A DNA stretch of 49,300 nt from a virus: the IMG/VR virus record IMGVR_UViG_3300044911_003293, positions 1-49,300 of that record. One strand, 5' to 3'. The notes beneath the pieces are model-generated. The model saw only the letters and a list, made by a program, of their open reading frames with translations, did not search any database and had not been told where the DNA came from. The position numbers were made by a program, and so were the translations under genes. Numbering within the stretch: position 1 is the stretch's first letter; every line of letters begins with the position of its first letter. Shown piece by piece: positions 1,055 through 40,036 of the stretch.

Positions 1055-1858
1055 ATGGCTTTTCAATTTGAGGAAGATGAGGCGATAGAATTTGGTGATC
1101 GAGAGGCCGTGCTTATTTATCATTTTCGATTTTGGATTAGAAAAAATAAAGCTAATAACCATAATTTTTTCGATGGTAGAACTTGGACGTGGAATAAGAA
1201 CGATGCTTTTGCTAAACTATTTCGATTTTGGAGCAAGGATCAAATAAGAAGATTGATTGATAATTTGGTTGACAAAGGGGTAATTATAAAAGGAAATTAC
1301 AACTCCAATCCTCACGATAGAACCTGTTGGTATGCTTTTACTGATGAGGCTAGATTTTTAAGAGAAGCGCCATCAAAGCAAGATAGGACTGATTTGGCAA
1401 ATTTGCCAAATGCAAATGGTGAAAATGCCAAATCCATTTCGCAAAATAGCCAAATCGATTTGGCAGAATTAGAAAATCCAATTGGCAAATTTGCCAATTA
1501 TAAAGAAACAGATCTTAAACCAGATCTTAACCCAAATGAAAAAACTCCAGATTTATCTGTGAATGAAATTAAAAAAATGATTGCTGAAAAAATCAAAGAG
1601 GCGGAGTTTTCAAAACAAAGTTTTGAGGGAGAAGCAAAAAAGAGCCTTTGGAAGCCGTCTGATATTTATCAATCTTTGGATGACGCAGCCCTGATGAGAG
1701 CTAAAAAAGAAGCACCTGGATGGGATATTTTATATCTTGCAGGGATCTACGCCAACAACTTGAACAATGGAACTCATAAAGAACCTAACAGCATCAGAGC
1801 GGCTTTTCCAGTGTGGTGTGGTAAATATACAATTAATAAAATGTTAAAATTGAGGTGA
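1055..1858 (+). CDS. Phage replication protein with N-terminal winged helix
   Basis: The 267-residue protein begins with a winged-helix type domain (about residues 1-105; FGDREAVLIYHF and a later HTH-like segment around WSKDQIRRLIDNLV). This pattern is seen in phage O-type or replisome-organiser proteins that bind the origin and recruit the host helicase loader. A polar, Asn-rich linker (about 110-170) is followed by a smaller helical domain ending in a conserved-looking IRAAFPVWCGKY segment. No helicase or primase gene is visible in the window, consistent with dependence on host replication enzymes. The origin might lie in the linker-coding DNA, as in lambda O, or in the 49.07-49.17 kb region. 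Family placement is by pattern only. Confidence 0.6.
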   Translation: MAFQFEEDEAIEFGDREAVLIYHFRFWIRKNKANNHNFFDGRTWTWNKNDAFAKLFRFWSKDQIRRLIDNLVDKGVIIKGNYNSNPHDRTCWYAFTDEARFLREAPSKQDRTDLANLPNANGENAKSISQNSQIDLAELENPIGKFANYKETDLKPDLNPNEKTPDLSVNEIKKMIAEKIKEAEFSKQSFEGEAKKSLWKPSDIYQSLDDAALMRAKKEAPGWDILYLAGIYANNLNNGTHKEPNSIRAAFPVWCGKYTINKMLKLR

Positions 1859-1862
1859 AATA

Positions 1863-2498
1863 ATGAAAATATCTATCCTAACACAACTAAATAGCTGGTT
1901 TACAAAATATACAGATTTTTTGGCTCAGGAGCTAAGAAAAAGAGGCCATGAAGTAAAATGTATCGATAGAATTGATGATATAGATCGTGGAGACATACTA
2001 TTCGCACTAAGTCTTTATACTATCATGCCAAAGCCGTATTTAAATCTTAATAAGCATAATATTGTGATTCACGAAAGTGATCTACCTCAAGGTAAAGGCT
2101 GGGCTCCTCTTCCTTGGCAGGTTTTGGAAGGTAAAAATGATATAGTTTTTACCATGTTTGAAGTTGATGAAAAAGTTGATAATGGGCCATATTATTTTAA
2201 AGATGTTTTGCGGCTAGAAGGCCACGAATTAAACCCAGAATTACGTGACTTGCAAGCCAGAAAAAGAATTAAAATGTGCTTGGAATTTGTAAATAATTAT
2301 GATGAATTAAAAACTCCAAAACCTCAATCTGGCCCAGAATCTTTCTATAAGCGCAGGACTTCGGAATCATCAGAATTAGATTTAAATAAAACAATCAACG
2401 AGCAATTTAATTTATTTAGAATTGTTGATAATGAGAGCTATCCAGCATTTTTTATCAAGAATGGCAAAAAGTATAAATTAAAGATCGAGAAAGCATGA
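1863..2498 (+). CDS. Formyltransferase-family protein (formyl_trans_N-like)
   Basis: The 211-residue product resembles the N-terminal catalytic domain of tetrahydrofolate-dependent formyltransferases (methionyl-tRNA, GAR and sugar-amine types). It has an early Rossmann-like segment, then IHESDLPQGKGWAPLPW around the catalytic His70 and VDNGP with Asp106, corresponding to the family's His and Asp. The Asn normally two residues before the His is Val here, as I recall for an H-x-S-D-L-P subfamily often found near surface-polysaccharide genes. Residues after about 150 are a poorly conserved tail. It follows the replication gene by 4 bases, so it is expressed early. The substrate is unknown: an amino sugar, a nucleotide or another amine. 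Confidence 0.7.
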   Translation: MKISILTQLNSWFTKYTDFLAQELRKRGHEVKCIDRIDDIDRGDILFALSLYTIMPKPYLNLNKHNIVIHESDLPQGKGWAPLPWQVLEGKNDIVFTMFEVDEKVDNGPYYFKDVLRLEGHELNPELRDLQARKRIKMCLEFVNNYDELKTPKPQSGPESFYKRRTSESSELDLNKTINEQFNLFRIVDNESYPAFFIKNGKKYKLKIEKA

Positions 2499-2759: not shown

Positions 2760-2816
2760 TTGACTTAAAAATAGTTTTCTATAATTCTATTACTCTATTA
2801 AACTAATATACTATTT
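2760..2816 (+). promoter_or_regulatory. Promoter and 8-bp repeat array upstream of the RHH/ParA operon
   Basis: A -35-like TTGACT (2760-2765) is followed by octamers in strict 8-base register: TTCTATAA (2777), TTCTATTA (2785), CTCTATTA (2793), then degenerate AACTAATA (2801) and TACTATTT (2809). Two of these units recur upstream of the gene at 4241. Short direct repeats of this kind are the known targets of ribbon-helix-helix partition regulators such as omega and ParG, so this is a likely operator and possible centromere for the RHH protein encoded immediately downstream. Confidence 0.6.
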
Positions 2817-2824
2817 ATAAAATT

Positions 2825-3028
2825 ATGGCAAGACAGCAATTTAACAACACAATTGACGAAGAAGTAATCAACAAAGTCAAAACAAGAGCAATAAATAATA
2901 CCCAGCTTTTTGGCGAAGATAGACGTGGATCACAAAGTAGAGCGGTTGAAATATTTTTAGAATTAGGAATGGAAAAATTTGACCAATTGCTTAAGGAAGG
3001 GGTTTTTATAAATAAAAAATTAAAATAA
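2825..3028 (+). CDS. Ribbon-helix-helix DNA-binding protein (partition partner or repressor)
   Basis: This 67-residue protein has a short beta-strand start (RQQFNNTIDEEVINKVKTRA), typical of MetJ/Arc/CopG ribbon-helix-helix proteins, then a second helix (SQSRAVEIFLELGMEKF). Such proteins bind DNA as dimers on short tandem repeats, and an 8-bp repeat array lies directly upstream. The gene is 2 bases before parA. By analogy with known ParA-RHH pairs (omega, ParG) it could be the centromere-binding partner and autorepressor of the operon. Confidence 0.65.
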   Translation: MARQQFNNTIDEEVINKVKTRAINNTQLFGEDRRGSQSRAVEIFLELGMEKFDQLLKEGVFINKKLK

Positions 3029-3030
3029 TC

Positions 3031-3795
3031 ATGGAACAAGTAATTGAGCAGCACATAAAAAAAATCAGAGCGTTTATTGTTGCTGTCATTTCTCAAAAAG
3101 GAGGCGTTGGCAAAACAATGGTTGATGCTCAACTAGCAATAGCTTTAGCTATAAGAGGCTTAAAAGTGGCTATTATAGATATGGACGAAGACCAATATTC
3201 AGCCGCCAAAATGATGACCAGAAGGAATCAAGCTAATATCCTTCCTGTTGTCAGTCATTTTATCGCAACTCCTGAAACGCTAAAACAAATAATTACTAAA
3301 ATTTCTCAAGAATTTCATGTTATATTTTTAGAATCTACTGGAAAAATTACCGAAGAATTAAGACTAGCAGTATCGCTTGCAGATTTGATTATTTCTCCTT
3401 TAGAAGCGGTACAAGATAATATTGATACGATTCCTAACCTTGATTCAACTTTAGACAAATTAATTAATCAAGGCGTTTTAGCTAATCATGTGCGGGCGTT
3501 TATTGTTCCTAACAAAGTGCCTAGTCAACAAAGAGAAATAAATTTTAACAATACTGACAATAAACTTGTGAGAATGCTTAACTTGGAGCCCTCTTTAAAG
3601 CATTTTAAATTTACAAAAACATTTATTAAACATAGGCCAAGTATATATCCAGAGTGTTATGCCTTAGGCAAAGGTGTTAGTGAGCTAAAAGGCGCTGAAA
3701 TTAATCCTAAAGATCCAAGAGAAGGATTACAAGCGATCACAAAATCTGTTCAAGAAATCAACAATTTATTAGAGGAATTATTTTATGCAGAATAA
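3031..3795 (+). CDS. parA: ParA-family partition ATPase
   Basis: The 254-residue protein carries the deviant Walker A motif of ParA/MinD ATPases, KGGVGKT at residues 23-29, including the signature first lysine. A Walker A' region follows (VAIIDMDEDQYSA), then a Walker B-like strand (HVIFLESTGK). Its length is that of small, HTH-less type Ib ParA proteins, which pair with small RHH partners, as seen next door. Such ATPases move DNA or complexes over the nucleoid in an ATP-dependent gradient. In a phage this suggests plasmid-like maintenance of the prophage, although relatives can also position other cargo. The gene overlaps the next by 11 bases. Confidence 0.85.
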   Translation: MEQVIEQHIKKIRAFIVAVISQKGGVGKTMVDAQLAIALAIRGLKVAIIDMDEDQYSAAKMMTRRNQANILPVVSHFIATPETLKQIITKISQEFHVIFLESTGKITEELRLAVSLADLIISPLEAVQDNIDTIPNLDSTLDKLINQGVLANHVRAFIVPNKVPSQQREINFNNTDNKLVRMLNLEPSLKHFKFTKTFIKHRPSIYPECYALGKGVSELKGAEINPKDPREGLQAITKSVQEINNLLEELFYAE

Positions 3796-4153
3796 CGACA
3801 AAAAAGGTAAATTACCCTTTTCTTTTACTGACTTACCTTCTATTGAGGAGAAAATAGAAAAGATTGAGCAGCCAGAAGTTAAAAAAATAATTGAAGGAGC
3901 GGAAGAAAAATCATCAGCCGTAGAAAAAGTAAAAGCCATGCAACAATTTGGCTTAAGAGAGGATGAAATTAATCTTGGCGGCCCCGTCTCCTATTCGCAA
4001 TATAAAATATTTAAAAAAATAGTTGATGCTTATCAAGAAGAGGATAGATACGAAGAAAGAAGTAAAAGAAAGAATTGGAGTCAAAAAACTTTAGCTGCAC
4101 ACTATATTTTAGAGGGCATCAAAAGAGACATGAAAAAAATTAAAAATAATTAA
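3785..4153 (+). CDS. Candidate third component of the ParA operon
   Basis: The 122-residue product starts inside the end of parA (11-base overlap), so it is translationally coupled. The N-terminal part is disordered and charged (KLPFSFTDLPSIEEK, then EEK-rich). Residues 80-120 are basic and helical (SQKTLAAHYILEGIKRD), a pattern that could belong to a compact DNA-binding fold or a ParA-contacting helix. No family is recognised. Its position after parA is where partition systems normally place the DNA-binding partner, so either this protein or the RHH protein upstream could fill that role. Confidence 0.6.
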   Translation: MQNNDKKGKLPFSFTDLPSIEEKIEKIEQPEVKKIIEGAEEKSSAVEKVKAMQQFGLREDEINLGGPVSYSQYKIFKKIVDAYQEEDRYEERSKRKNWSQKTLAAHYILEGIKRDMKKIKNN

Positions 4154-4162
4154 AAAATGTTG

Positions 4163-4194
4163 TTGACTTATTATAGAACTCTATTATTCTATAA
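4163..4194 (+). promoter_or_regulatory. Second promoter with the 8-bp repeats
   Basis: TTGACT (4163-4168) is followed by TTATAGAA, CTCTATTA (4179) and TTCTATAA (4187). The outer two octamers are inverted complements of each other. The octamers CTCTATTA and TTCTATAA are the same as those upstream of 2825, so the same RHH protein probably binds here and co-regulates the downstream operon. Confidence 0.55.
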
Positions 4195-4240
4195 TAATAT
4201 TATATTAGTTTAATATTATATATATAAATATATTTATTTT

Positions 4241-4531
4241 ATGACAGATTGGTACATTGATACAAATAAAGGTGATTTTATGGCATCTTCTTTAGAAGAA
4301 GTTATAAAACAAACTATAGAATTTTACGGAACTAGAGAAGATTCTGTTGATACTATTACCAATATTTATGCTGTTATAGATGGCGAGATATTTCAACAAT
4401 TACCCTCTTCTGAAGTTTATCAAATTCAACAACAAATAGAAGATGCTGTAATTGAATGGATAAGAATAGAGCGTGAAGAACAAAAAGGGTTTAATGCAAT
4501 TCGATCTGATTATTTTGCAAATTTAATTTAA
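4241..4531 (+). CDS. Acidic 96-aa early protein, unknown
   Basis: An acidic protein of 96 residues beginning TDWYIDTNKGDFMASSLEEV, with alternating short beta strands and helices and a helical C-terminal half. No family is recognised. It is the first gene after the second repeat-bearing promoter, so its expression is probably tied to the RHH regulator. The next gene begins 6 bases after its stop, and the annealase gene follows. Its acidity could suit a DNA-mimic or host-protein inhibitor, but this is speculation. Confidence 0.6.
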   Translation: MTDWYIDTNKGDFMASSLEEVIKQTIEFYGTREDSVDTITNIYAVIDGEIFQQLPSSEVYQIQQQIEDAVIEWIRIEREEQKGFNAIRSDYFANLI

Positions 4532-4820: not shown

Positions 4821-5801
4821 ATGCAAAATACAGAAATAACAAAAAAAGACCCACTACAAGCTTCGCTAGAAGTTCGTGGAATGGATATTAGACAATTCAG
4901 AGTAATTAAAGAAATTCTTTATCCAAATGTTCAAAAAGATGAAACGCTGTTAATGGCAATCGATTACTGCAAATCTCGTAATCTCGACATCATGAAGCGC
5001 ACAATCCAAATAGTGCCCATTTGGGACAGTAAAGCTAAGTGTATGAAAGATACTATTTGGCCATCAATTTCAGAAATTAGAATTACAGCCACAAGGACTG
5101 GTCAATATGCTGGCAGAAGTGAGGCTGAATTTGGAGATGATATAACTGAAACTCTTGACAATGTAGAGGTATCTTATCCGAAATGGTGCAAAGTCACTGT
5201 TTACAGAAATGTTAAAGGTGAAAAATGTGCTTTTACGGCAAAACTTTTTTGGAAGCAAGAATATAAAACCGCTAAGAACGATACTAAAGCACCTAATTCG
5301 ATGTGGGCTAAGAGAAGCTATTCGCAATTAGAAAAATGTGTTGAAGCGGCGGCTCTAAGAATGGCATTTCCTGAAGAGGTAGGTAATGACTATATCGCAG
5401 AAGAGGCTTTTGATGCAAATGAAGGAATGTTAAATATTACTCCAAAATCAAAAACCGCTCAAGCTCACGCAATACCGCCAGCTTTAGAAAAATCGTTTAA
5501 TGCGGCTGAAATAAAAATGCCTATACAGAAAGACGATATAGAGCGTCCTATGGAAGAGGTATTTGCTGAAATTGAGCAAGAAATTATAAAGGGTGAAGTT
5601 ATTGCTGATAACAGCGAGGCTATAGAGGTCGCCTTTAAAAAGGTTTCAGAGGGCCTTAATTCGATGAAAACTGAGAAAGCCGTCAATATGTCTTTTGATG
5701 TTTCCTATAAAGATGATATCGAGTTTTTGAGAGCTTATAAGCCTGATTACTATGCTGAATTGATTTCTATTAAAAGTGCGAAGTTGGAGGCTTTGAAATA
5801 A
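4821..5801 (+). CDS. bet: Bet/RecT-family single-strand annealing protein
   Basis: The 326-residue product matches the phage Bet type of annealase. The core lies in about residues 15-200, with YCKSRNLDIMKRTIQIVPI and the typical RTGQYAGRSEAEFG segment near residue 95, then MWAKRSYSQLEKCVEAAALR near 165-190. Such proteins bind single-stranded DNA left by a 5'-3' exonuclease and anneal complementary strands. The exonuclease partner is encoded two genes on (6177-7271) and an SSB at 9860. The C-terminal 120 residues are acidic and poorly conserved, where partner contacts are usual. GGAG lies 7 bases before the ATG, and the stop overlaps the next start. Confidence 0.85.
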   Translation: MQNTEITKKDPLQASLEVRGMDIRQFRVIKEILYPNVQKDETLLMAIDYCKSRNLDIMKRTIQIVPIWDSKAKCMKDTIWPSISEIRITATRTGQYAGRSEAEFGDDITETLDNVEVSYPKWCKVTVYRNVKGEKCAFTAKLFWKQEYKTAKNDTKAPNSMWAKRSYSQLEKCVEAAALRMAFPEEVGNDYIAEEAFDANEGMLNITPKSKTAQAHAIPPALEKSFNAAEIKMPIQKDDIERPMEEVFAEIEQEIIKGEVIADNSEAIEVAFKKVSEGLNSMKTEKAVNMSFDVSYKDDIEFLRAYKPDYYAELISIKSAKLEALK

Positions 5802-6187
5802 TGCAGATATATTGCTGTGAGTGCAAGAATAAAATCGAGGCCAGATTAACTAATGGCTTAGAAATCTATCCTCACCGCTCTGATCTTGCTAGCTTGCCTT
5901 TCTGGAAATGTGATAGGTGTAGAAATTTCGTAGGGTGTCATTATAAAACAAAAGACCCTACGAAGCCACTAGGCTGCATTCCAAATAAGGCAATAAAAGA
6001 AGCTCGGCAGCATATACATAAATTACTAGATCCTCTTTGGCATCATAATAAAAAGAGAAGAGATGAGTTATATAATTTGATAGCAAAGAAAACAGGAAGA
6101 GCTTCTTATCACACAGCAAATATTAGAAGCGTGGAAGAAGCTAGAGAGATTTATAAAATAATTTTGGATATTAAAAATGGAAAATAA
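5801..6187 (+). CDS. DUF3268-type zinc-finger phage protein
   Basis: The 128-residue protein contains a Cys cluster near the N-terminus (YCCECKNK) and a second pair at CDRC, forming one zinc site. A helical region follows with a conserved-looking pattern (HIHKLLDPLWH, then R-R-D-E-L-Y and a short C-terminal helix). This is the arrangement of the DUF3268 zinc-finger family, which commonly lies beside phage recombination genes. Here it is wedged between the annealase (1-base overlap) and the exonuclease (11-base overlap), which suggests a part in processing recombination intermediates. The biochemical role is not established. Confidence 0.7.
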   Translation: MQIYCCECKNKIEARLTNGLEIYPHRSDLASLPFWKCDRCRNFVGCHYKTKDPTKPLGCIPNKAIKEARQHIHKLLDPLWHHNKKRRDELYNLIAKKTGRASYHTANIRSVEEAREIYKIILDIKNGK

Positions 6188-7271
6188 TCGAATCACGCAA
6201 GGCTCGCCCCAGTGGCTAGATGCTCGCCAAGAAACTATCGGTGGGAGTGAATCTTATTGCCCAATATATCATTATTGTCGTAATGATCTCGTGGCTAACG
6301 GATTTAAAGAAGAAGAATTAATTAAAGACCGCCCATTTAGAACTATTCAAGAGCTTTTTCTAAAAATAAAGTTCAATGCCAAATTAAGCGACATTGATCC
6401 TGTGCATAAGGTTTTTGGCAACGCCTTAGAAGAATACACGGCCTATCGTTTTGCTAAGGAATATGTGGAAATTGATGTAAAAAGAACTAAGGAATTTTTA
6501 AGAGGGGAAGGTTTGGCATCCTGTTCACCTGATGGCTATTTAAATATCAAAAATGGTGAATATGATGATTACGATAAAACCTGCAAAATAAATGCTTCTT
6601 GGGGTGAAGGATTAATTGAATTAAAAACGGCTAACTTTTTTTCTAAATTTTTGAGTGGCGGAAGCAAGCTCCAGTATATAGTGCAGCTCCAGCATAATTT
6701 AATGGTGGCCAAAAAGACTTGGGGATGTTTAACGGCCTTGTTGCCAAAAGAAAAGGAGATTGAAATTGATGGCGTAAAATTCCCAACGGATGACCCTTTT
6801 ATTAAAGGAAAAACCCATACTTGGGCGCAAGAAGGCAAGTTTGAAATGTTGGATAAAATCTATGATTTGCAAATTTATATTTACCCTGTTTTGCCTTTTT
6901 TCCAATCTCTAATAATGAAGAGCTTAAACACCTTCCAAGCTGATTTAGACGCCTACGACACCAACCCAAGCGTATTTCCTCGCAATAGCGAAGATTTGAC
7001 AGGATTACAGCGTGAAAAGGCGCTATGGGGACAATTATGGCCTGAAAAATTTGGGGTTTTAAAAGTAGAAGAAGGAAGCGACATAGACGATCTCATAGGA
7101 AAAAGAATGCTTGCGGCTAGTGATGAATTGATAGTGAAAACAGCGAAAGAAAATTACACAAATCAAATTCTGCAAAAAGCTGGTAAATATTGTGAAATCA
7201 TAGGCTCAAGCCATAAAGTCAAATTTGACAAAAATGGAACCATGAGATTTTCTAAAGCAAAAAGTTTATGA
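6177..7271 (+). CDS. YqaJ/lambda-Exo-like exonuclease
   Basis: The 364-residue protein opens with the family signature GSPQWLDARQETIGGSES. It has the acidic metal-binding region CSPDGYL, then the catalytic strand IELKTA (the E-x-K of the PD-(D/E)xK fold), and the later QLQHNLMVA helix typical of YqaJ nucleases. These enzymes degrade one strand of duplex DNA 5' to 3' and hand the other to an annealase, here the Bet-like protein 376 bases upstream. It is longer than lambda Exo (226 aa), with inserts around residues 60-120 and a C-terminal extension. It overlaps the upstream gene by 11 bases. Confidence 0.85.
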   Translation: MENNRITQGSPQWLDARQETIGGSESYCPIYHYCRNDLVANGFKEEELIKDRPFRTIQELFLKIKFNAKLSDIDPVHKVFGNALEEYTAYRFAKEYVEIDVKRTKEFLRGEGLASCSPDGYLNIKNGEYDDYDKTCKINASWGEGLIELKTANFFSKFLSGGSKLQYIVQLQHNLMVAKKTWGCLTALLPKEKEIEIDGVKFPTDDPFIKGKTHTWAQEGKFEMLDKIYDLQIYIYPVLPFFQSLIMKSLNTFQADLDAYDTNPSVFPRNSEDLTGLQREKALWGQLWPEKFGVLKVEEGSDIDDLIGKRMLAASDELIVKTAKENYTNQILQKAGKYCEIIGSSHKVKFDKNGTMRFSKAKSL

Positions 7272-11103: not shown

Positions 11104-11265
11104 ATGAATATATTTGAGATAGTTTTTATAGGTTGGTGTGCTGTTGCCTTTACAACTTTCATTTGCGTTGTGGGAGCGGATGGCAAGGATAAAGCTGCCA
11201 ATATTTATTTTGGAATATCGGCAACAGTCTTAACTATAATGGCTGTCCTAACTAAGCTTTTATAA
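11104..11265 (+). CDS. 53-aa two-helix membrane protein
   Basis: GAGG lies 5 bases before the ATG. The 53-residue product has two hydrophobic helices (IVFIGWCAVAFTTFICVV and the later YFGISATVLTIMAVLTKLL) linked by a charged loop GADGKDKAA. It should span the inner membrane twice. Its stop codon lies inside the terminator hairpin at 11248-11278, so it is the last gene of this rightward unit before the leftward integrase. Confidence 0.55.
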   Translation: MNIFEIVFIGWCAVAFTTFICVVGADGKDKAANIYFGISATVLTIMAVLTKLL

Positions 11266-11278
11266 AAAGCTAAGTTAG
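11248..11278. terminator. Bidirectional terminator hairpin between convergent genes
   Basis: CTAACTAAGCTTTT pairs with AAAAGCTAAGTTAG (13 of 14 pairs) around an ATA loop, between the rightward membrane gene (stop at 11265) and the leftward integrase (stop at 11283). The U-rich inner stem on both strands fits a terminator for converging transcription. Confidence 0.6.
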
Positions 11279-11282
11279 AGGA

Positions 11283-11876
11283 TTATTTCAAATACTTCGA
11301 TTTATAGGTATCAAGCGCCTCTCTTTTAGTCGTTCCCATGTAAGCAGTTGTCGATTTGATGTCGTGATGCCCTAATAATTCCATTAAAAGCTTTGGGTCT
11401 TTAGTTTCTTCATAAACCATAACCGCATTTGTTCGTCTTCCAGTGTGAGTTGCGTAAAGCGCAGAATCTACCCCTAAGAGTTTACCCCAACTTTTCCAAG
11501 CGGCACGGTGAGTTTCGTAGCAGATATGTTTTCCTTTTGAACCACGAAAAAGATAGTCGGTTGAAGCCAGCTTTTCCGCAGAAATGTAATTTTGTAAAAC
11601 AGTTTGTGTAAATGGCGAAAGCGCTACGATATGAGGGCGGCGTGTTTTCTTTTGTTTAATATTTAGCTCTTCTTTTACTTTTCCTTCAAAGTCTGTAATG
11701 TCTTCGACTTTTAGCTTAATGACATCAGAGGAGCGAAGCATTGAATCAAGTTGCAAGCTGAATAAAGCTAGATCACGAGGCTTTGATGCGAGGTGAGCAC
11801 GTAATTCTTGGATTTGGGAATCGGTTAAGTGTTTTTTTTGTCCGACTGATTTATTTTTATTCCAGGGGGTCATCAT
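11283..11876 (-). CDS. int: Short tyrosine recombinase (integrase)
   Basis: The protein has a full tyrosine-recombinase active site: the first Arg in LDSMLRSSDVIKLKV, HTGRRTNAV (His-x-x-Arg), LGHHDIKSTTAYMG with the second His and the nucleophile Tyr. It begins TPWNKNKSVGQKKHL, the usual N-terminus of a short proteobacterial integrase type lacking a separate core-binding domain. That alignment is why I choose the ATG near 11876 over the upstream ATG at 11912, which would overlap the 11857 gene by 56 bases and add 12 unrelated residues. It would insert the phage at attB or resolve dimers. No attP could be identified. Confidence 0.85.
   Translation of the reverse strand: MMTPWNKNKSVGQKKHLTDSQIQELRAHLASKPRDLALFSLQLDSMLRSSDVIKLKVEDITDFEGKVKEELNIKQKKTRRPHIVALSPFTQTVLQNYISAEKLASTDYLFRGSKGKHICYETHRAAWKSWGKLLGVDSALYATHTGRRTNAVMVYEETKDPKLLMELLGHHDIKSTTAYMGTTKREALDTYKSKYLK
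11856..11870 (-). repeat. 15-bp inverted repeat, integrase side
   Basis: Read on the minus strand this is ACCCCCTGGAATAAA, spanning the integrase codons for T-P-W-N-K and the stop of the upstream gene. The same 15 bases occur on the plus strand at 12560-12574. Confidence 0.7.
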
Positions 11877-12210
11877 TTCTTGAAAGATATTTCTTAAAAA
11901 ATTCCTTTTCATCTTCAGTATTTTGCCATTCTTCCCAAAGTTTCACATATTCAGGGAAAGCAAGCATCAGTCTATAATAATTATCTGGCGTAGATTGCGC
12001 TTTGGAAATTAATTCAAAAATAATTGAATCAAAATTGCTACCAAAATTACGCAGATTAACTGCTAAATGATAGCCTTCTTCTTGCTCTTCTTTAGCTTTC
12101 ATAGCAATTATCACTTGTAATCTAAGCAATTTTTCTTCTGCATCCGATTCGTTAAATCTTTCCCAGCGAAATTCTCGATTTTCTTTTAATTTTTTTTGAA
12201 GTTTGTCCAT
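11857..12210 (-). CDS. 117-aa protein upstream of integrase, unknown
   Basis: A charged helical protein of 117 residues read in the same direction as the integrase and overlapping its start by 20 bases, so the two are probably co-expressed. The first half is rich in Glu/Lys/Arg; the second contains STPDNYYRLMLAFPEYVKLWEEWQ. No HTH or known excisionase pattern is clear. By position it could be an integrase partner or a regulator of lysogeny, but the sequence does not settle this. Confidence 0.6.
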   Translation of the reverse strand: MDKLQKKLKENREFRWERFNESDAEEKLLRLQVIIAMKAKEEQEEGYHLAVNLRNFGSNFDSIIFELISKAQSTPDNYYRLMLAFPEYVKLWEEWQNTEDEKEFFKKYLSRNDDPLE

Positions 12211-24048: not shown

Positions 24049-27000
24049 TTATTTTTTAGGTCTTAACAAATAATCAATTGGCGCAGGTTCTTTACCTTCT
24101 TTTTCTTTTTGTTGAGCGTCAATAAATACATCAATTTGACTTGATGGATATTTAAATACAATGCCACCAGCTTCATTTAATCCTTCGATTACTTTACTAA
24201 TATCAACCTCATCTTCTTTTGTAAACTCTTTACCAACTGTGTATAATCCTTTTCCTATTTTTCCTACGCCAGAAAATCCCGCTGGCGTGTCGTTGAAACC
24301 TTTTGCTGCCGCTGCAGCTTCTCTGGCAATTGGAAATTGACCAGCAAAACTTGAAACCATTAATCCGACATTGTAAGCTAAAAACTTATTATCTTCGTCA
24401 TCGTCGCCAAAATCTGGCGCTCTTCCAGTTAGTAATTCGCCAATCAAAGCCTCTATCCAAAATAATAATATAAAATCACTAGCAAATCTTGCGACATCAC
24501 GAGGTTTAGAAAAATCGGTCTTGCGGTATGATTCTGTTGCAAGATTTAGTTTTGCGTTAAAATAGGTGTAGAAAGAAGTGAAAATTTTAACCAAATTAAA
24601 TTTTCTTGCACCAAAAGCGCTGCCTCTTTCAAACGCCGATAGGTCTTGTTCCAAACCACTCCCTTGTGCTTGAGCTATTACTAAATCAGCATAATCGACT
24701 GCTTTAGAATCATCACCATTAAAATCTTTTAAACCTTTGTAATAAGCGCCTATCCAAGTTGGAATATCAACAAGCATTTGCATTTTAGCCATAGGCCAAA
24801 AATAAATTGCTGTCGCTTTTTCTGCGATACTACCTTTGCGCTCCATTTTTTTAAGGGTATCAAAAATGTCTCTTTGATATGTTTTTGAGCGGTCTTTTAA
24901 GATCTTGGATTTCTCTAATGCAAAATGAACATTTTTATTTATTTCCATTGGATTTCCATTTCCAAGGGTTTTAAACAATCCTGAAAGCATATTGCCCCAG
25001 CCAATTTTTACAATTGATTGAACAAAACCCGAAGGTTGCATTAAAGCTGTAGCAATTTTAAATCCCATTGTAGAAATAGTTGCGCCAGCTCTTAGGGAGT
25101 TTATTAATCCATTGTAAGCATCGTAAGCAAGTGAAGATCCGCCATAAATATCTTTTAGCCAAGTATCTAACTGTTTCGTTGTTTCCTCGCCAGCGTGGCT
25201 ATTAATAGCTTTTTTTACAATTCTATTGTTTAGAATTTTATAAGAGTTCCATGCCTGTTCTTTTAATGCCAAATCATTCAAAACAGTTGATAGATGTCTA
25301 AATGCTGGTTTTAATGTTAGATCAATTTGCTCTGTAACTTTTTTATCACTTCTGCCTTTAGTATAAGATTTTTCCCATTGAATATAATCAGAAATTGAGC
25401 CAAATATAGCGTTTAGACTATCGTCTGTTGTATTTTTAGTGGATTGTCCGTTGTATGCTATAGGATAATAACCACCCTTTAAATTTACAGTTTCGCCGTC
25501 AGAAGTTTTAATTTTAAATGGAATTGGTTTAACTTTTCCAGGTTTAAATCCAACAAGCTTTCTTTGTAGTTTTGCAACTGGCTCATAGTAGCTGCCGATC
25601 AAATCCCACATCTCTTGCACAAATTCCCAATCTTTTTTAGTAAGATTAGAGAGTATTGCATTTACTTGAGCATCGCCATAATTAAAGCCGTCTTTAATTC
25701 TTCTTCTATTTGTTCCATTGCCCCAGTTGAGGGCAAAAGCAATCATATCTTGTTTTGAATAAGAAAAATTGGCTTCTGGTATGAATACTTTTTTACCAGA
25801 AATTTCACCAGCCTTTTTGCCAAAATATTTTCTATAAAGAGAGTCGAGCTTATGATAGGCTTCCTCCATCATATCATTGCGCTTTAGTTCGCCTGTGGCA
25901 ATAGGCTTAACAAAATAATTATAAAAAGTTCCTAATGGCTTTTCACCATCAAGTTTAAGAGCAATATTCTTAACCTTGATTAAAGGCATCATAAAACTCT
26001 CAAAGGCTGCATTTAGCTTTTGTTTTGGCGTTAAATTTCCCCTTATTTCTGGACGCTCTTTTAAATTATCTTCAATGGTTTGCTTTATTTCTTTTGCAAT
26101 TTCTGCAAGTTCAACTCTTTTGCCTTCAATTTCTAAACTTCTTAAGCCTTGGCCTATATGAGCAAGATTTGTAACGGCATTATCAAGGGTTTTAAATTGG
26201 TCAGTGGTTAGGGTTCTAATATTGTCCTTATCCTGAAACTCGCCAATTTCTGAGAAATTTACCAGCCCTAAAACACCTTCTTCTGTTTGTTCTTTCTTCC
26301 AGTTTTCAAGTTCGGCAATATTAGTTTTTTCATAATCAAAATCCTTCGCATCAATTCCAAAATCTTGGAGTAATCCAACGATTCTTTGGCGATAGTCTTC
26401 ATCAATTGAAACCTTGCCTACCACAGGTTTTCTTTTATAGCGTTCAGCTCTTTTTAAAAAGTCTTTTACATCTTTTTTTATTTGTTGGCTTTCTCTATAG
26501 AGGTAATGATTTAAAAGTTGCTTCTTTTTCCATTCAACGGCTTTTGTGTAATCTTTTTTGCCATAAGCAATACCAGCTTCACGAGCCGCCTTGACTTCAT
26601 TGAGATAATAAATATTGCTTTGCGTAGCATCTTTTATCTCTTTTTTAGCAAGAATATCTTTGGCTTTCTGCTTATAATTCTCAGTTGTATCAATAAAAGT
26701 ATTAACCTTTTTATTAGCATTATTTAACTCGTATAGAATCTTCTTTGCTCTGGCGTCATTTTCAGAAGCGCTAATTGCTTCTTCTTCATTAATTGGCTCA
26801 ACATACCTTGCAGCCATTTCTTCATCTACAGCGTTCTTTAATTCAGTTTTAAAGCTTGGTGCTTCTGCTAAACTATTCAGCATTTCGCCGCCGTCTTTAA
26901 ATCCTAAAAAATCTGCAGCCATATCAACATCAACGCCATCTTCTGCGATAATGTTTTTTGGTAATCTTTTTATAAAATCGCCATCATAATTTTCAACGCT

Positions 27001-30000
27001 TCCACGGTTTAGTTTATAGTCTGGTGATTTTAGGATATTTAACGCACGATATACTGGTGTTTCGTTTAGCTGTTTTTCTAGCTCCGCCCTCACCTTCGCT
27101 TTTTCTTCTTTAAAGCTTTTGGTGTTTTGTTTTGACAATTCTTTAAGAGACCTAGACAGTAGTTTTTCTTTAGCGCTTTCTTTGGCGTTCTGCGTAAGGG
27201 CTAAATATTTCTTTTGCTCTTCTTCACTTAAAGAATCAAGTATTGCTTGGTCTGCCCTAAATAAGGGATTGCTTTTTAGATTCTCAATTTCTTCATCAGT
27301 TGCAAGCATTCTGTCGAATACTTTGCGGATAGGTTCAGAAATTTCAACATCAAGAGCTTTAACATTTTTGTAAATTCTTAATAGCCAGCTTTTAAATTTT
27401 CTAAAGGCGTTGCGTAAGCCGATTGATGGTGCGCGACCTTCTCTTAAATAAGCTTCAAAACCTCTGGCGAATTTTTCGTGTTGCTCTGTTGTTATTTTGC
27501 CGTCTTTTATATCAAGCCACTCCTCAATTGTTTTCCAGTCTTTTTTGACTTGGTCAGAAATATCTGGCAGTTTGGCAACTTCGCTTTCTATTTGAAGGAA
27601 TACATGGCCTAGCTCATGTAATAGAGTTGAGCGGTTTTTGCTTTTGAATAGTGAAATTATTGGTTTTTGACCAATAAATTGGGTTTGACCCTGAATTATA
27701 TCTCCGCTTTGAAAAAATAACTTTTTACCCAAATAGTCAACTAAACTTTCTCCTATATCTTTTTGTTGTTTTTTAATTACATTAAGTTGTTCAGAGGGTC
27801 TTAAATTAGCAAATCCTTTAATTCTTTCTGCTTCAGTTTTAGGTTCTATACCCAGTTCTTCTTTAAGAAATTTATCAAGTATAGCGTTGGCTCTTTCTTG
27901 GTCTGCGGCTATAATGCCAAAACCAGATTGAAAGAAAGTTTTACTATTAAAATAATCGTCTAAATTATTTTTTGCTTCATTTATTGTGCGTGTTATTAGC
28001 TCTAACTTTTCTGATGGTCTAAGACTCTCATATGCCTCTTGCTTTTCTTCTATGGTTTTTGGCTCAATACCATTTTCTTTTAGGAATTTGTCTAAAGATT
28101 TTAGGGCGAGTTCTTGGTCTTTTTGGATTATTCCTAAGCCGCCTTGATAAAAAATATCATTTAAAAAAACTTTTTTTATATTAGAAGCGGTAATATTGCT
28201 TATAGTTGCCCCAGAAATTCTATTTCCTTTATCATCGGTGTGCTCTATTTCAAGAGAATCTAGGCCTGCAATTTTAGCAGCTCGAACAATTTGACTTAGC
28301 TGTGTATTTGATGGAGGAATCACTGAATCAATAATTCCAGAATTAAAATCAACTCTGATCGCTCCTGATTCACTCATAAATTTAAACATTGCATCCGTGC
28401 CAGAAGCGTCAACCAATTCTTGAGCAATTTCTCGATGATCGACCGCTCTTTCTCCTTTTAAATAATCATCTTTTTCTGCAATAAATTTTTCGCCAGCTTT
28501 TACATAGCCTGCCGCCTGATGACGACCAGTCATATCAAGCATTTTTCCATTGGATAGAATATATCCAGCTTCTAAAGGATTGGCTGTTACTCCCGTCAGC
28601 TCAATCGCTTTCTTATTTAATTCTTCTGCTCTGTCCTTAGTTTGTATTTGAAAATACCCCTGCTCTTGCTTATAATTCTCAATCGCCTTCTTAATCGTCT
28701 CATTATCAGAGTTTTTAATATCAACCCCAAGCCTATCTAAATCTTCAAGAAACTGAAACATTCTTTCTTCTTCTGGGCTAATTTCCTTAGAAATATCAAC
28801 GCCTTGCAATTCTCTTCCAATAAGATCAAGAATAGCTTGGCGACTTATATAATCACCCTCAATTTCAACTCCACTATTAGGAAACTTCTCAATAAATTCA
28901 TTTGCTGGAAAATTATCAACATCACCTAAGTCGCTTTCTTTTCTAAAAAGTCCAGGTGCGGTTTTGGTTGTAATTCCAAGCGCATTAAGTTCACCAGCTA
29001 AATTAGAATCCATTCTTACACCACCCTTCTCTTTCAAGAATTTCAGAAGTGGTTTAGTTGGCTTTTTTGGATTAAATTTTCTTGCTTGGTTTATAAATTT
29101 GTCTAGCTCGTCAACCTTGGTATTTTTAACCATTGGCTGCAATCTATTAAAGACTGCGTTTTTAACCTCAAGATTGCCAAGATAAGAATCTAAAACCTTC
29201 TTTGCTTCTTGGCTGCCGTATCTGCTGCTTTTAGTATCATAATAAGATGTTAAAGCTGCAATAATATTTTGCGCTTCGTTCTTAGGAAGATTAAGCCCTA
29301 GAATTTGATTCTTGATATTGTTCTTAACTGCCTCTTGACCTACGGCTTCTTTTTGATTTTTTTGTTCAAAATTTACTGTGTCAGAAACATTAGAAAGGAA
29401 TGTGTCTTGTGCCGCCTGTTCACTTAGGCTTTCAGGCGTAAATGACATGTGTTTTTGCAATTCTGCAAAGTTTTGATTTTGTGCAATCGCTGTTAAAATC
29501 TGATTAGCTGGCAAAACTAAATTACCTCCAGATTCAAGCGCTTCACTTAATTGCGCCCTAGCCTCAGGCACGGCTTGATAAAATTGCTCTATTTCTTCTG
29601 GCGTTTTGGTTTGAAAGAATGTTTGCACTTGTTCGGCGGGGATATAAACATTCTGCTCGCCCAAGGTGTCTTGAGTTGTTTCCTTAAATAATTCAGGATC
29701 ACGCTTAAAAATCTTACTTTCTTTGATTTTCTCAACGGTTTTTGAGATTTCTTCCGACTCTTGCTTGCCTTGATTTCTTTGGTCATATATTTGTTTTGCG
29801 GCAGTTACCCCACCAGTTGCTATACCAAGACCAATACCGCCCCCAGCGCCAGCTTTTGCGCTTTCAGCAATCCTGATTCCAGTTTCAGAAAGGAATTTAT
29901 AAAGTCCTTCGGTATCGTTAGCGTCTTTCATGCCAACTATACTAAAATCACCAGTTGAAGCAACTTTAGCAGCTTCAGTAAAAAGAACATTCATTAATTC

Positions 30001-31026
30001 TTGAGAACCCTCTGCAAGTCCTTCTGCTGCCGCTAGTTGACCTATGTTTTTTAAATATTCTCTTCCAACTTTAGTTTTAGCCGCCGTCTTTACTCCTTCT
30101 CTTGAAAACGCTTTTTTAATTTGACCTGTTGCAGCTTCAAAAGGTATTAATTCAATTAATCCATTAACTGCGCCAGTTGCAATTGCTGCACCAGCAGCTA
30201 CTTCTTTTTCAATAGGCTTACCAGTTTCGTCAACTAAGTTTTTTAAATCTTTATAAGCTAGACCCATTTCAAGCTTACCGGCTCCGTAGGCTGCACCCGC
30301 TCTTGATCCTAAAGTAGCGCCCGCAATAGCTCCTACTGGGGTTTTGGTTATCGCCCCACCCGCTGCCGCACCAACTGCTGCACCTGCCAGTGTTTCTGGT
30401 ATGGTTGATAATATAGTTGGAATTGCTGCGGCGGTATATGATGGAATGCTGGAAACAAAACCAAGTTTATAATCTTTATTTTGTGCTTGAGATTCTTCTA
30501 TTAAAGCTAAGCTATTTTCTTCAAGTGGGGAAAGTTTAAATTTTTTATTGCCAGTTACATCATAGTTCATTTGTTTAACTAGCAAATCTGCTTGAGCTAC
30601 ATTTTCTTGGGCCGCTTTATATTCTTGCTTAACGCTGCCAAAAACCCTTTCAAAATAACTCAAACTATCAACATCATCACGAATTGCCGCAACTTTATTT
30701 GGATCAGATAATTGTTTTGCAGTAAGTGGGTATTTATTAAGAATATCTTGATAATTAATCGAATTAAGCTCTGTCATTTGCTTAATTTGATTTTCTTGCG
30801 TCCTTACGACATCAACAGGGATTTTGGTTTGTTGATAGATTTGATATTGCTTGGTTGCTTGCTCTGGCGTGATTGAGGTTGATGCAGAAATGTTAGATTT
30901 AAGTTGAGAGACTTTGTCGCTCTCAAAATTATCTATCAGAGAAGAAAGTTTGTTATCTACTTTTGGCGCAACACTATCCTGCGTTTCAAAATCGTCTATT
31001 AGAGAGGAAAGTTTATTGCTTTGCAT
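24049..31026 (-). CDS. Giant (2325-aa) polyvalent virion protein with HELGH zinc site
   Basis: By size and order (after the gp14-like and 506-aa proteins) this is the largest ejection-type internal virion protein. Residues 4-14 and 25-35 are near-repeats (NKLSSLIDDFE/NKLSSLIDNFE), then Ala/Gly-rich hydrophobic segments (about 195-270) and long helical regions. Residues about 815-930 contain GYILSNGKMLDMTGR and DHREIAQ, a pattern of large polyvalent protein modules. Two tandem units of 72-73 residues begin after FYQGG (Gln961) and FFQSG (Gln1033), with a third FFQSG at Gln1106. A zinc-metallopeptidase motif HELGH occurs at 1137-1141, with a candidate downstream Glu-rich helix. The C-terminal 700 residues match the usual end of such proteins (KGGYYPIAYNG, later GSGLEQDL...FGARKFN). 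No lytic transglycosylase motif is visible. Confidence 0.75.
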   Translation of the reverse strand: MQSNKLSSLIDDFETQDSVAPKVDNKLSSLIDNFESDKVSQLKSNISASTSITPEQATKQYQIYQQTKIPVDVVRTQENQIKQMTELNSINYQDILNKYPLTAKQLSDPNKVAAIRDDVDSLSYFERVFGSVKQEYKAAQENVAQADLLVKQMNYDVTGNKKFKLSPLEENSLALIEESQAQNKDYKLGFVSSIPSYTAAAIPTILSTIPETLAGAAVGAAAGGAITKTPVGAIAGATLGSRAGAAYGAGKLEMGLAYKDLKNLVDETGKPIEKEVAAGAAIATGAVNGLIELIPFEAATGQIKKAFSREGVKTAAKTKVGREYLKNIGQLAAAEGLAEGSQELMNVLFTEAAKVASTGDFSIVGMKDANDTEGLYKFLSETGIRIAESAKAGAGGGIGLGIATGGVTAAKQIYDQRNQGKQESEEISKTVEKIKESKIFKRDPELFKETTQDTLGEQNVYIPAEQVQTFFQTKTPEEIEQFYQAVPEARAQLSEALESGGNLVLPANQILTAIAQNQNFAELQKHMSFTPESLSEQAAQDTFLSNVSDTVNFEQKNQKEAVGQEAVKNNIKNQILGLNLPKNEAQNIIAALTSYYDTKSSRYGSQEAKKVLDSYLGNLEVKNAVFNRLQPMVKNTKVDELDKFINQARKFNPKKPTKPLLKFLKEKGGVRMDSNLAGELNALGITTKTAPGLFRKESDLGDVDNFPANEFIEKFPNSGVEIEGDYISRQAILDLIGRELQGVDISKEISPEEERMFQFLEDLDRLGVDIKNSDNETIKKAIENYKQEQGYFQIQTKDRAEELNKKAIELTGVTANPLEAGYILSNGKMLDMTGRHQAAGYVKAGEKFIAEKDDYLKGERAVDHREIAQELVDASGTDAMFKFMSESGAIRVDFNSGIIDSVIPPSNTQLSQIVRAAKIAGLDSLEIEHTDDKGNRISGATISNITASNIKKVFLNDIFYQGGLGIIQKDQELALKSLDKFLKENGIEPKTIEEKQEAYESLRPSEKLELITRTINEAKNNLDDYFNSKTFFQSGFGIIAADQERANAILDKFLKEELGIEPKTEAERIKGFANLRPSEQLNVIKKQQKDIGESLVDYLGKKLFFQSGDIIQGQTQFIGQKPIISLFKSKNRSTLLHELGHVFLQIESEVAKLPDISDQVKKDWKTIEEWLDIKDGKITTEQHEKFARGFEAYLREGRAPSIGLRNAFRKFKSWLLRIYKNVKALDVEISEPIRKVFDRMLATDEEIENLKSNPLFRADQAILDSLSEEEQKKYLALTQNAKESAKEKLLSRSLKELSKQNTKSFKEEKAKVRAELEKQLNETPVYRALNILKSPDYKLNRGSVENYDGDFIKRLPKNIIAEDGVDVDMAADFLGFKDGGEMLNSLAEAPSFKTELKNAVDEEMAARYVEPINEEEAISASENDARAKKILYELNNANKKVNTFIDTTENYKQKAKDILAKKEIKDATQSNIYYLNEVKAAREAGIAYGKKDYTKAVEWKKKQLLNHYLYRESQQIKKDVKDFLKRAERYKRKPVVGKVSIDEDYRQRIVGLLQDFGIDAKDFDYEKTNIAELENWKKEQTEEGVLGLVNFSEIGEFQDKDNIRTLTTDQFKTLDNAVTNLAHIGQGLRSLEIEGKRVELAEIAKEIKQTIEDNLKERPEIRGNLTPKQKLNAAFESFMMPLIKVKNIALKLDGEKPLGTFYNYFVKPIATGELKRNDMMEEAYHKLDSLYRKYFGKKAGEISGKKVFIPEANFSYSKQDMIAFALNWGNGTNRRRIKDGFNYGDAQVNAILSNLTKKDWEFVQEMWDLIGSYYEPVAKLQRKLVGFKPGKVKPIPFKIKTSDGETVNLKGGYYPIAYNGQSTKNTTDDSLNAIFGSISDYIQWEKSYTKGRSDKKVTEQIDLTLKPAFRHLSTVLNDLALKEQAWNSYKILNNRIVKKAINSHAGEETTKQLDTWLKDIYGGSSLAYDAYNGLINSLRAGATISTMGFKIATALMQPSGFVQSIVKIGWGNMLSGLFKTLGNGNPMEINKNVHFALEKSKILKDRSKTYQRDIFDTLKKMERKGSIAEKATAIYFWPMAKMQMLVDIPTWIGAYYKGLKDFNGDDSKAVDYADLVIAQAQGSGLEQDLSAFERGSAFGARKFNLVKIFTSFYTYFNAKLNLATESYRKTDFSKPRDVARFASDFILLFWIEALIGELLTGRAPDFGDDDEDNKFLAYNVGLMVSSFAGQFPIAREAAAAAKGFNDTPAGFSGVGKIGKGLYTVGKEFTKEDEVDISKVIEGLNEAGGIVFKYPSSQIDVFIDAQQKEKEGKEPAPIDYLLRPKK

Positions 31027-39960: not shown

Positions 39961-40036
39961 TGGTGCTACCAGTAAGATTCGAACTCACGACATCCTGTTT
40001 ACAAGACAGGTGCTCTACCTACTGAGCTATAGTAGC
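39961..40036 (-). tRNA. tRNA-Thr(TGT)
   Basis: Read on the minus strand it folds into a complete cloverleaf. The 7-bp acceptor GCTACTA/TGGTAGC is followed by discriminator A and an encoded CCA. The D-arm is GCTC...GAGC, the anticodon stem CCTGT/ACAGG with loop CTTGTAA (anticodon TGT, reads ACA), and the T-arm GTGAG-TTCGAAT-CTTAC. Its first base is the last base of the portal stop codon TAG. ACA codons are frequent in AT-rich genomes, so the tRNA may boost translation of late genes. Confidence 0.95.

Follow-up and report, generated by a model that had tools for sequence, protein, structure and literature searches.

We propose that the locus between the replication and recombination genes of this metagenomic phage genome is a type Ib (ParF/ParG- or delta/omega-like) partition cassette, that the phage would be maintained in lysogeny as a low-copy circular plasmid, and that the centromere-binding protein would repress both the partition operon and the downstream recombination operon; we put the probability of this reading at about 0.74. 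The window, by which we mean the whole 49,300-nt stretch of IMG/VR record IMGVR_UViG_3300044911_003293, carries RHH1, ParA, and p3, genes that overlap or are parted by short gaps, between two arrays of 8-bp repeats.

The middle gene of the cassette (3031..3795, + strand) encodes a 254 aa ParF-like (type Ib) Walker ATPase which matches Pfam CbiA/MipZ, has a deviant Walker A motif (KGGVGKT) near its N-terminus, and lacks an N-terminal DNA-binding domain or HTH, being a small ParA of the kind that type Ib partition systems use. Its best NCBIfam model is NF041546 (ParA_partition), with an E-value of 2e-22 that falls under the curated cut-off, and a profile of the ParA family matched both TP228 ParF (E 6e-10) and pNOB8 ParA over nearly full length. 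The ParA/RHH partition-type unit described in an earlier note on this DNA is supported, and the RHH and ParA genes it named are both present. The first of these, RHH1 (2825..3028, + strand), encodes a small ribbon-helix-helix-like protein of 67 aa, which we regard as an extra regulator; it matches an Arc-like repressor family in PHROG (E 0.003), and a profile of the six RHH1 sequences retrieved the TraM RHH domain (E 0.02) and a CopG protein (E 0.09). AlphaFold modeling of RHH1 from six alignment rows gave a poor structure (pLDDT 63) with helices at 12-28 and 35-57 only, and because the top-ranked Foldseek match of this model, to TraM, was not significant (E 4.3), we make no claim about the fold.

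The earlier note took the RHH protein at 2825 for the partition partner of ParA and missed the third gene, p3 (3785..4153, + strand), whose 122 aa product sits in the place of a ParG/omega-type centromere binder and is more likely than RHH1 to be the binder. The gene overlaps the parA stop by 11 bp, and its product has a putative N-terminal tail followed by a putative C-terminal RHH-like segment. We annotate p3 as a putative centromere-binding protein from its position and from the RHH-family matches of its counterparts: the gene in the p3 place of the L009 record matches Omega_Repress (1e-4) and ParG (0.008), and that of the L002 record matches RHH_10 (8e-5). The window p3 retrieved no family match of its own, its AlphaFold model (six rows) was poor (pLDDT 51), and a profile of all six p3 sequences searched against the PDB returned nothing useful; its position and a 17-residue match to the L006 p3 (E 2e-5) tie it tentatively to the RHH binder family.

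Both arrays follow one grammar, a 4-bp core plus a 4-bp A+T-rich spacer. The upstream array (2771..2814, + strand), a putative operator/centromere, has six cores in exact 8-bp register and reads ATAG-N4-CTAT-N4-CTAT-N4-CTAT-N4-CTAA-N4-CTAT, and the second array (4173..4208, + strand) reads ATAG-N4-CTAT-N4-CTAT-N4-ATAT-N4-TTAG in the same register. The shared string ATAG-N4-CTAT-N4-CTAT occurs at only two places in the genome, 2771 and 4173. The clearest units, three at each site with degenerate ones beside them, are short runs of octamers in exact 8-bp register: TTCTATAA (2777-2784), TTCTATTA (2785-2792), and CTCTATTA (2793-2800), all on the + strand, upstream of RHH1, and TTATAGAA (4171-4178), CTCTATTA (4179-4186), and TTCTATAA (4187-4194) at the second site. 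Tandem 16-mers of these octamers were seen three times against 0.07 expected (0 of 100 shuffles), and single octamers were not enriched (18 seen, 14.7 expected), the significance lying in the tandem register only. That octamers stand in register upstream of the 2825 gene, continue there as degenerate units, and recur upstream of the 4241 gene had been claimed before; all of this was found in place, with a register longer than first described and with a 20-bp element common to both sites in inverted copies that differ at one position (2796-2815 on the + strand and 4196-4215 on the - strand; 0.10 expected).

A -35-like TTGACT hexamer lies a few bases 5' of each array on the + strand, at 2760..2765 for the putative promoter of the par operon and at 4163..4168 for that of the downstream operon (match 4163..4190, 9/12). 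In all six phages TTGAC stands ahead of the upstream array, and sigma-70 matches in the cassette region showed no excess over chance. Short tandem repeats at the par operon promoter are a feature of type Ib systems, and the locus has them. Two tandem 40-bp repeats were also noticed immediately 5' of the par promoter (2649-2728). The second array stands at the promoter of the recombination operon, as had been proposed, and it recurs there in the relatives. All on the + strand, this operon begins with a 96 aa gene (4241..4531) that has a homolog in L002 (36% identity) and continues with a RecT-family single-strand annealing protein (4821..5801; Pfam RecT, 3e-19) and a YqaJ/RecE-like exonuclease (6177..7271; Pfam/PHROG), RecT being the conserved downstream neighbor (61% identity in the L002 record and 57% in the L009 record).

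On the other side of the cassette, the window encodes a replication initiation protein (DnaD/O-like; 1055..1858, + strand; PHROG 11233, E 3e-27), a phage-type replication gene, and no plasmid Rep. About five 22-bp direct repeats (ATTTGGCAAAATAGCCAAATCC) within the initiator gene (1392-1497) are candidate iterons of a lambda-O-like origin. The sole relative with a Rep_3 plasmid initiator is G004, in which 22-bp iteron-like repeats (L195; 4976-5039 and 5923-5969) lie just upstream of the Rep_3 gene. A formyltransferase-like gene was also seen in the early region of the window (1863-2498).

The relatives are five IMG/VR records (L002/G001, L006/G003, L008/G004, L009/G005, and L010/G006); single-sequence scans of viral contigs with ParA and RecT had found no relative or one, and small alignments did better. 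The order RHH1-ParA-p3 is kept in all five, after the replication genes and before the recombination genes. Several of the six phages differ in their virion genes, and the shared part is therefore an early module. The ParA of L002 belongs to another subfamily, with a plasmid RepA as its best NCBIfam match, yet occupies the same slot, which looks as if the cassette there had been replaced. A 94 aa N-terminal fragment resembling tryptophanyl-tRNA synthetase in L006 (9276-9560), searched for a clue to the host, had no close match among 289 genomes, alphaproteobacterial ones included.

A search of related phages for the 8-bp repeats, which the earlier note had suggested, found arrays in both cassette flanks of all five relatives, as in the window. 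The core, which was picked by eye, agrees within each phage and differs by phage: CTAT in the window, ACTA in L002 and L010, CTTA in L006, TAGA in L008, and CTTT in L009. When upstream arrays were matched to downstream arrays across the six phages, the pairing of each phage with itself ranked first of 720 pairings on three measures. Period 8 alone was in clear excess in the par flanks (63 windows against 5.1 in shuffled sequence; 0 of 500 shuffles), and the other intergenic DNA of the six phages, with the par flanks left out, gave no excess at this period (15 against 16.5). That other intergenic DNA does hold a period-11 excess (39 against 16.0; 0 of 200 shuffles), which comes partly from the G004 iterons.

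Either RHH protein could in principle read the arrays. RHH1 may be the actual array binder, repressing the par and recombination operons in the manner of Arc or TraM, with the centromere of p3 elsewhere or overlapping; RHH1 is promoter-proximal, the window copy has the Arc-like match given above, its putative recognition strand varies between phages as the cores do, and the p3 proteins of L006 and L010 have near-identical putative strands and different cores. Nevertheless, we find this assignment doubtful, given 45 ParF-like loci in other viral contigs which lack RHH1 and, within 120 bp upstream of parA, keep a period-8 signal and no other (63 against 9.4; 0 of 200 shuffles), although much of it comes from about five loci. 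By inspection, nearly all of these 45 loci encode a tail-RHH-like protein downstream of parA. The arrays thus go with ParA and p3 and not with RHH1, and we favor p3 as the binder; RHH1 may read the arrays as well.

Virion genes (terminase, head-tail adaptor, major head protein, and tail) and a plasmid-type partition cassette are found in one replicon in the window, as in phage-plasmids. Within the structural cluster, a tRNA-Thr(TGT) gene (39961-40036) abuts a portal-like gene, and the virion region also holds a single ORF of 2325 aa (24049-31026). The ends overlap by 87-127 bp in five of the six records, the window among them, which indicates closed circles, and the 127-bp overlap of the window is compatible with an extrachromosomal prophage. 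Circular assembly is also expected from circularly permuted phage DNA. When genomes were scanned with the ParA profile, only distant relatives came back (best 25-33% identity over longer stretches), and so no prophage copy of the group was seen in host genomes. To judge from gene content, members of the group are probably kept as plasmids in their hosts, because the five relatives share the layout, each with its own repeats, and have no integrase-like gene. The partition cassette, the closed circles, and the relatives without a tyrosine integrase all agree with the phage-plasmid-like lifestyle first suggested for this DNA.

The accompanying suggestion of two inheritance modes, integration by a tyrosine integrase or plasmid persistence, the choice being set by the RHH protein, fared poorly, and we consider it unlikely. 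A recombinase with a Phage_integrase domain is indeed present (11283..11912, - strand; Pfam, 2e-23), and a metagenomic phage-plasmid with ParA, ParB, and an integrase is on record (PMC4490671). However, the window protein is a small (209 aa), catalytic-domain-only putative resolvase: NCBIfam Xer models matched in their C-terminal parts only, the XerA match beginning at position 91 of 263, and the N-terminal binding domain is absent, so that it does not have the core-binding plus catalytic domains of an integrase. Its best relatives are plasmid-borne, no tRNA gene lies near it (the one tRNA gene in the window is that of the structural cluster), and no tyrosine integrase was found in any of the five relatives. 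In a phage integrase system the attP site lies beside the integrase and often derives from a tRNA gene; the window may have one of another origin. A role as a plasmid (dimer) resolvase is at least as likely as integration, since the putative resolvase is catalytic-only, has plasmid-like relatives, and has no tRNA gene nearby. The gene overlapping it (11857..12210, - strand; 117 aa) has homologs beside a small serine resolvase in G004 and as the first gene of the par operon in L006/G003, which also suggests a dimer resolvase. A candidate bidirectional terminator or recombination site, a long palindrome (CTAACTAAGCTTTTATAAAAAGCTAAGTTAG), lies at 11247-11278, where the recombinase gene has its 3' end.

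The cassette could also be a regulatory module only, in a virulent phage; early transcription would then be tuned by the ParA-like ATPase and the RHH proteins, which would have no part in segregation. The arrays do lie in promoters, and no isolate or lysogen is known. We regard this as very improbable all the same, as the ParA belongs to a partition family, the window (like G001) has a CI-like HTH_3 gene, and the pair of ParA and tail-RHH protein adjoins an initiator-like gene on contigs in bacterial genomes. Contigs with these three genes within a few kb were found in genomes of the order of a Rickettsia MAG, and such replication and partition genes thus occur outside this phage group too. 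By eye, two contigs of one genome (L215 and L217 of G473) each carry a ParA, a tail-RHH-like gene, and a stretch resembling the window initiator, and L215 also has an 839 aa ORF resembling a conjugation protein.

Partition by way of a type Ib cassette, the reading we prefer, has several described counterparts. RHH binders use arrays of this type, which overlap promoters (PMC9499535, PMC7308502, and PMC3346939). Similar to the window, TP228 parFGH encodes a ParF-like ATPase followed by a protein with a tail and an RHH domain, has 4-bp boxes with A+T-rich spacers (PMC7308502), and is autorepressed from an upstream operator, as we read the window; the window differs in its RHH gene upstream of parA, its array at a phage recombination promoter, and its CTAT core. 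The delta/omega system of pSM19035 likewise combines a small ParA with an RHH binder and short direct and inverted repeats, and its repeats overlap several promoters, which lets the same sites serve both partition and gene control, as proposed here (PMC9499535). In contrast to the 8-bp units and fewer clear copies of the window, pSM19035 has 7-bp heptads, 7-10 per site, with four contiguous repeats required for full ATPase activation, and its delta and omega genes are under separate promoters, whereas the window has one operon. The shortness of the window arrays, each with three clear units, weighs against the partition reading, as do the phage-type replication gene and the presence of a recombinase. 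The type Ib locus of Psychrobacter pP62BP1, as far as its description in PMC3346939 goes, resembles the window in its ParG-domain protein and 8-bp direct repeats, which lie between the -10 and the RBS of parA; unlike the window, it has 17 identical repeats at the single site described, and those passages mention no upstream RHH gene. The cryoconite phage CY1_63_1964 (Bellas et al. 2015) is, like the window, a metagenomic circular phage with ParA, and has its own ParB and integrase; it differs in its 80 kb length and CRISPR-Cas, and the passages on it describe no repeat arrays (PMC4490671). Partition with 8-bp repeats and ParG-type proteins (PMC3346939) and phage-plasmids with ParA/ParB and integrase (PMC4490671) are thus known already. 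The features that seem new here are an RHH gene added in front of parA, a further array at the recombination promoter, and cores particular to each phage in a conserved slot.

The mechanism we infer, from DNA binding and repression to partition and plasmid lysogeny, would run as follows. p3, possibly with RHH1, would coat the core-plus-spacer arrays as cooperative RHH dimers, and the bound arrays would serve as a centromere that ParA moves or tethers over the nucleoid, passing the prophage on to each daughter cell. Since both operons have promoters that the arrays overlap, the same binding would repress the par operon and the recombination operon during the plasmid state. By analogy with TP228 and pSM19035 (PMC7308502, PMC9499535), segregation, autoregulation, and the silencing of recombination genes in their operon would then all depend on one array code. 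More tentatively, and at well short of even odds, we suggest that these phage-plasmids keep a single slot for partition genes, set between those for replication and those for recombination, that the pair of binder and repeats in this slot evolves fast and so gives every phage a partition incompatibility type of its own, and that two RHH proteins with one array code couple segregation to repression of recombination in lysogeny; the different core in most phages and the different ParA subfamily in L002 are the basis for the diversification.

The group, metagenomic phages with genomes of 33-49 kb and a probable plasmid state, can be recognized by its 8-bp arrays at two promoters around an RHH-ParA-RHH cassette. 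For centromeres of this type in viral contigs, period 8 upstream of ParF-like genes is a simple marker. Segregation and the control of recombination appear to be linked by one code, and as it differs between related phages, it could set which prophages coexist.
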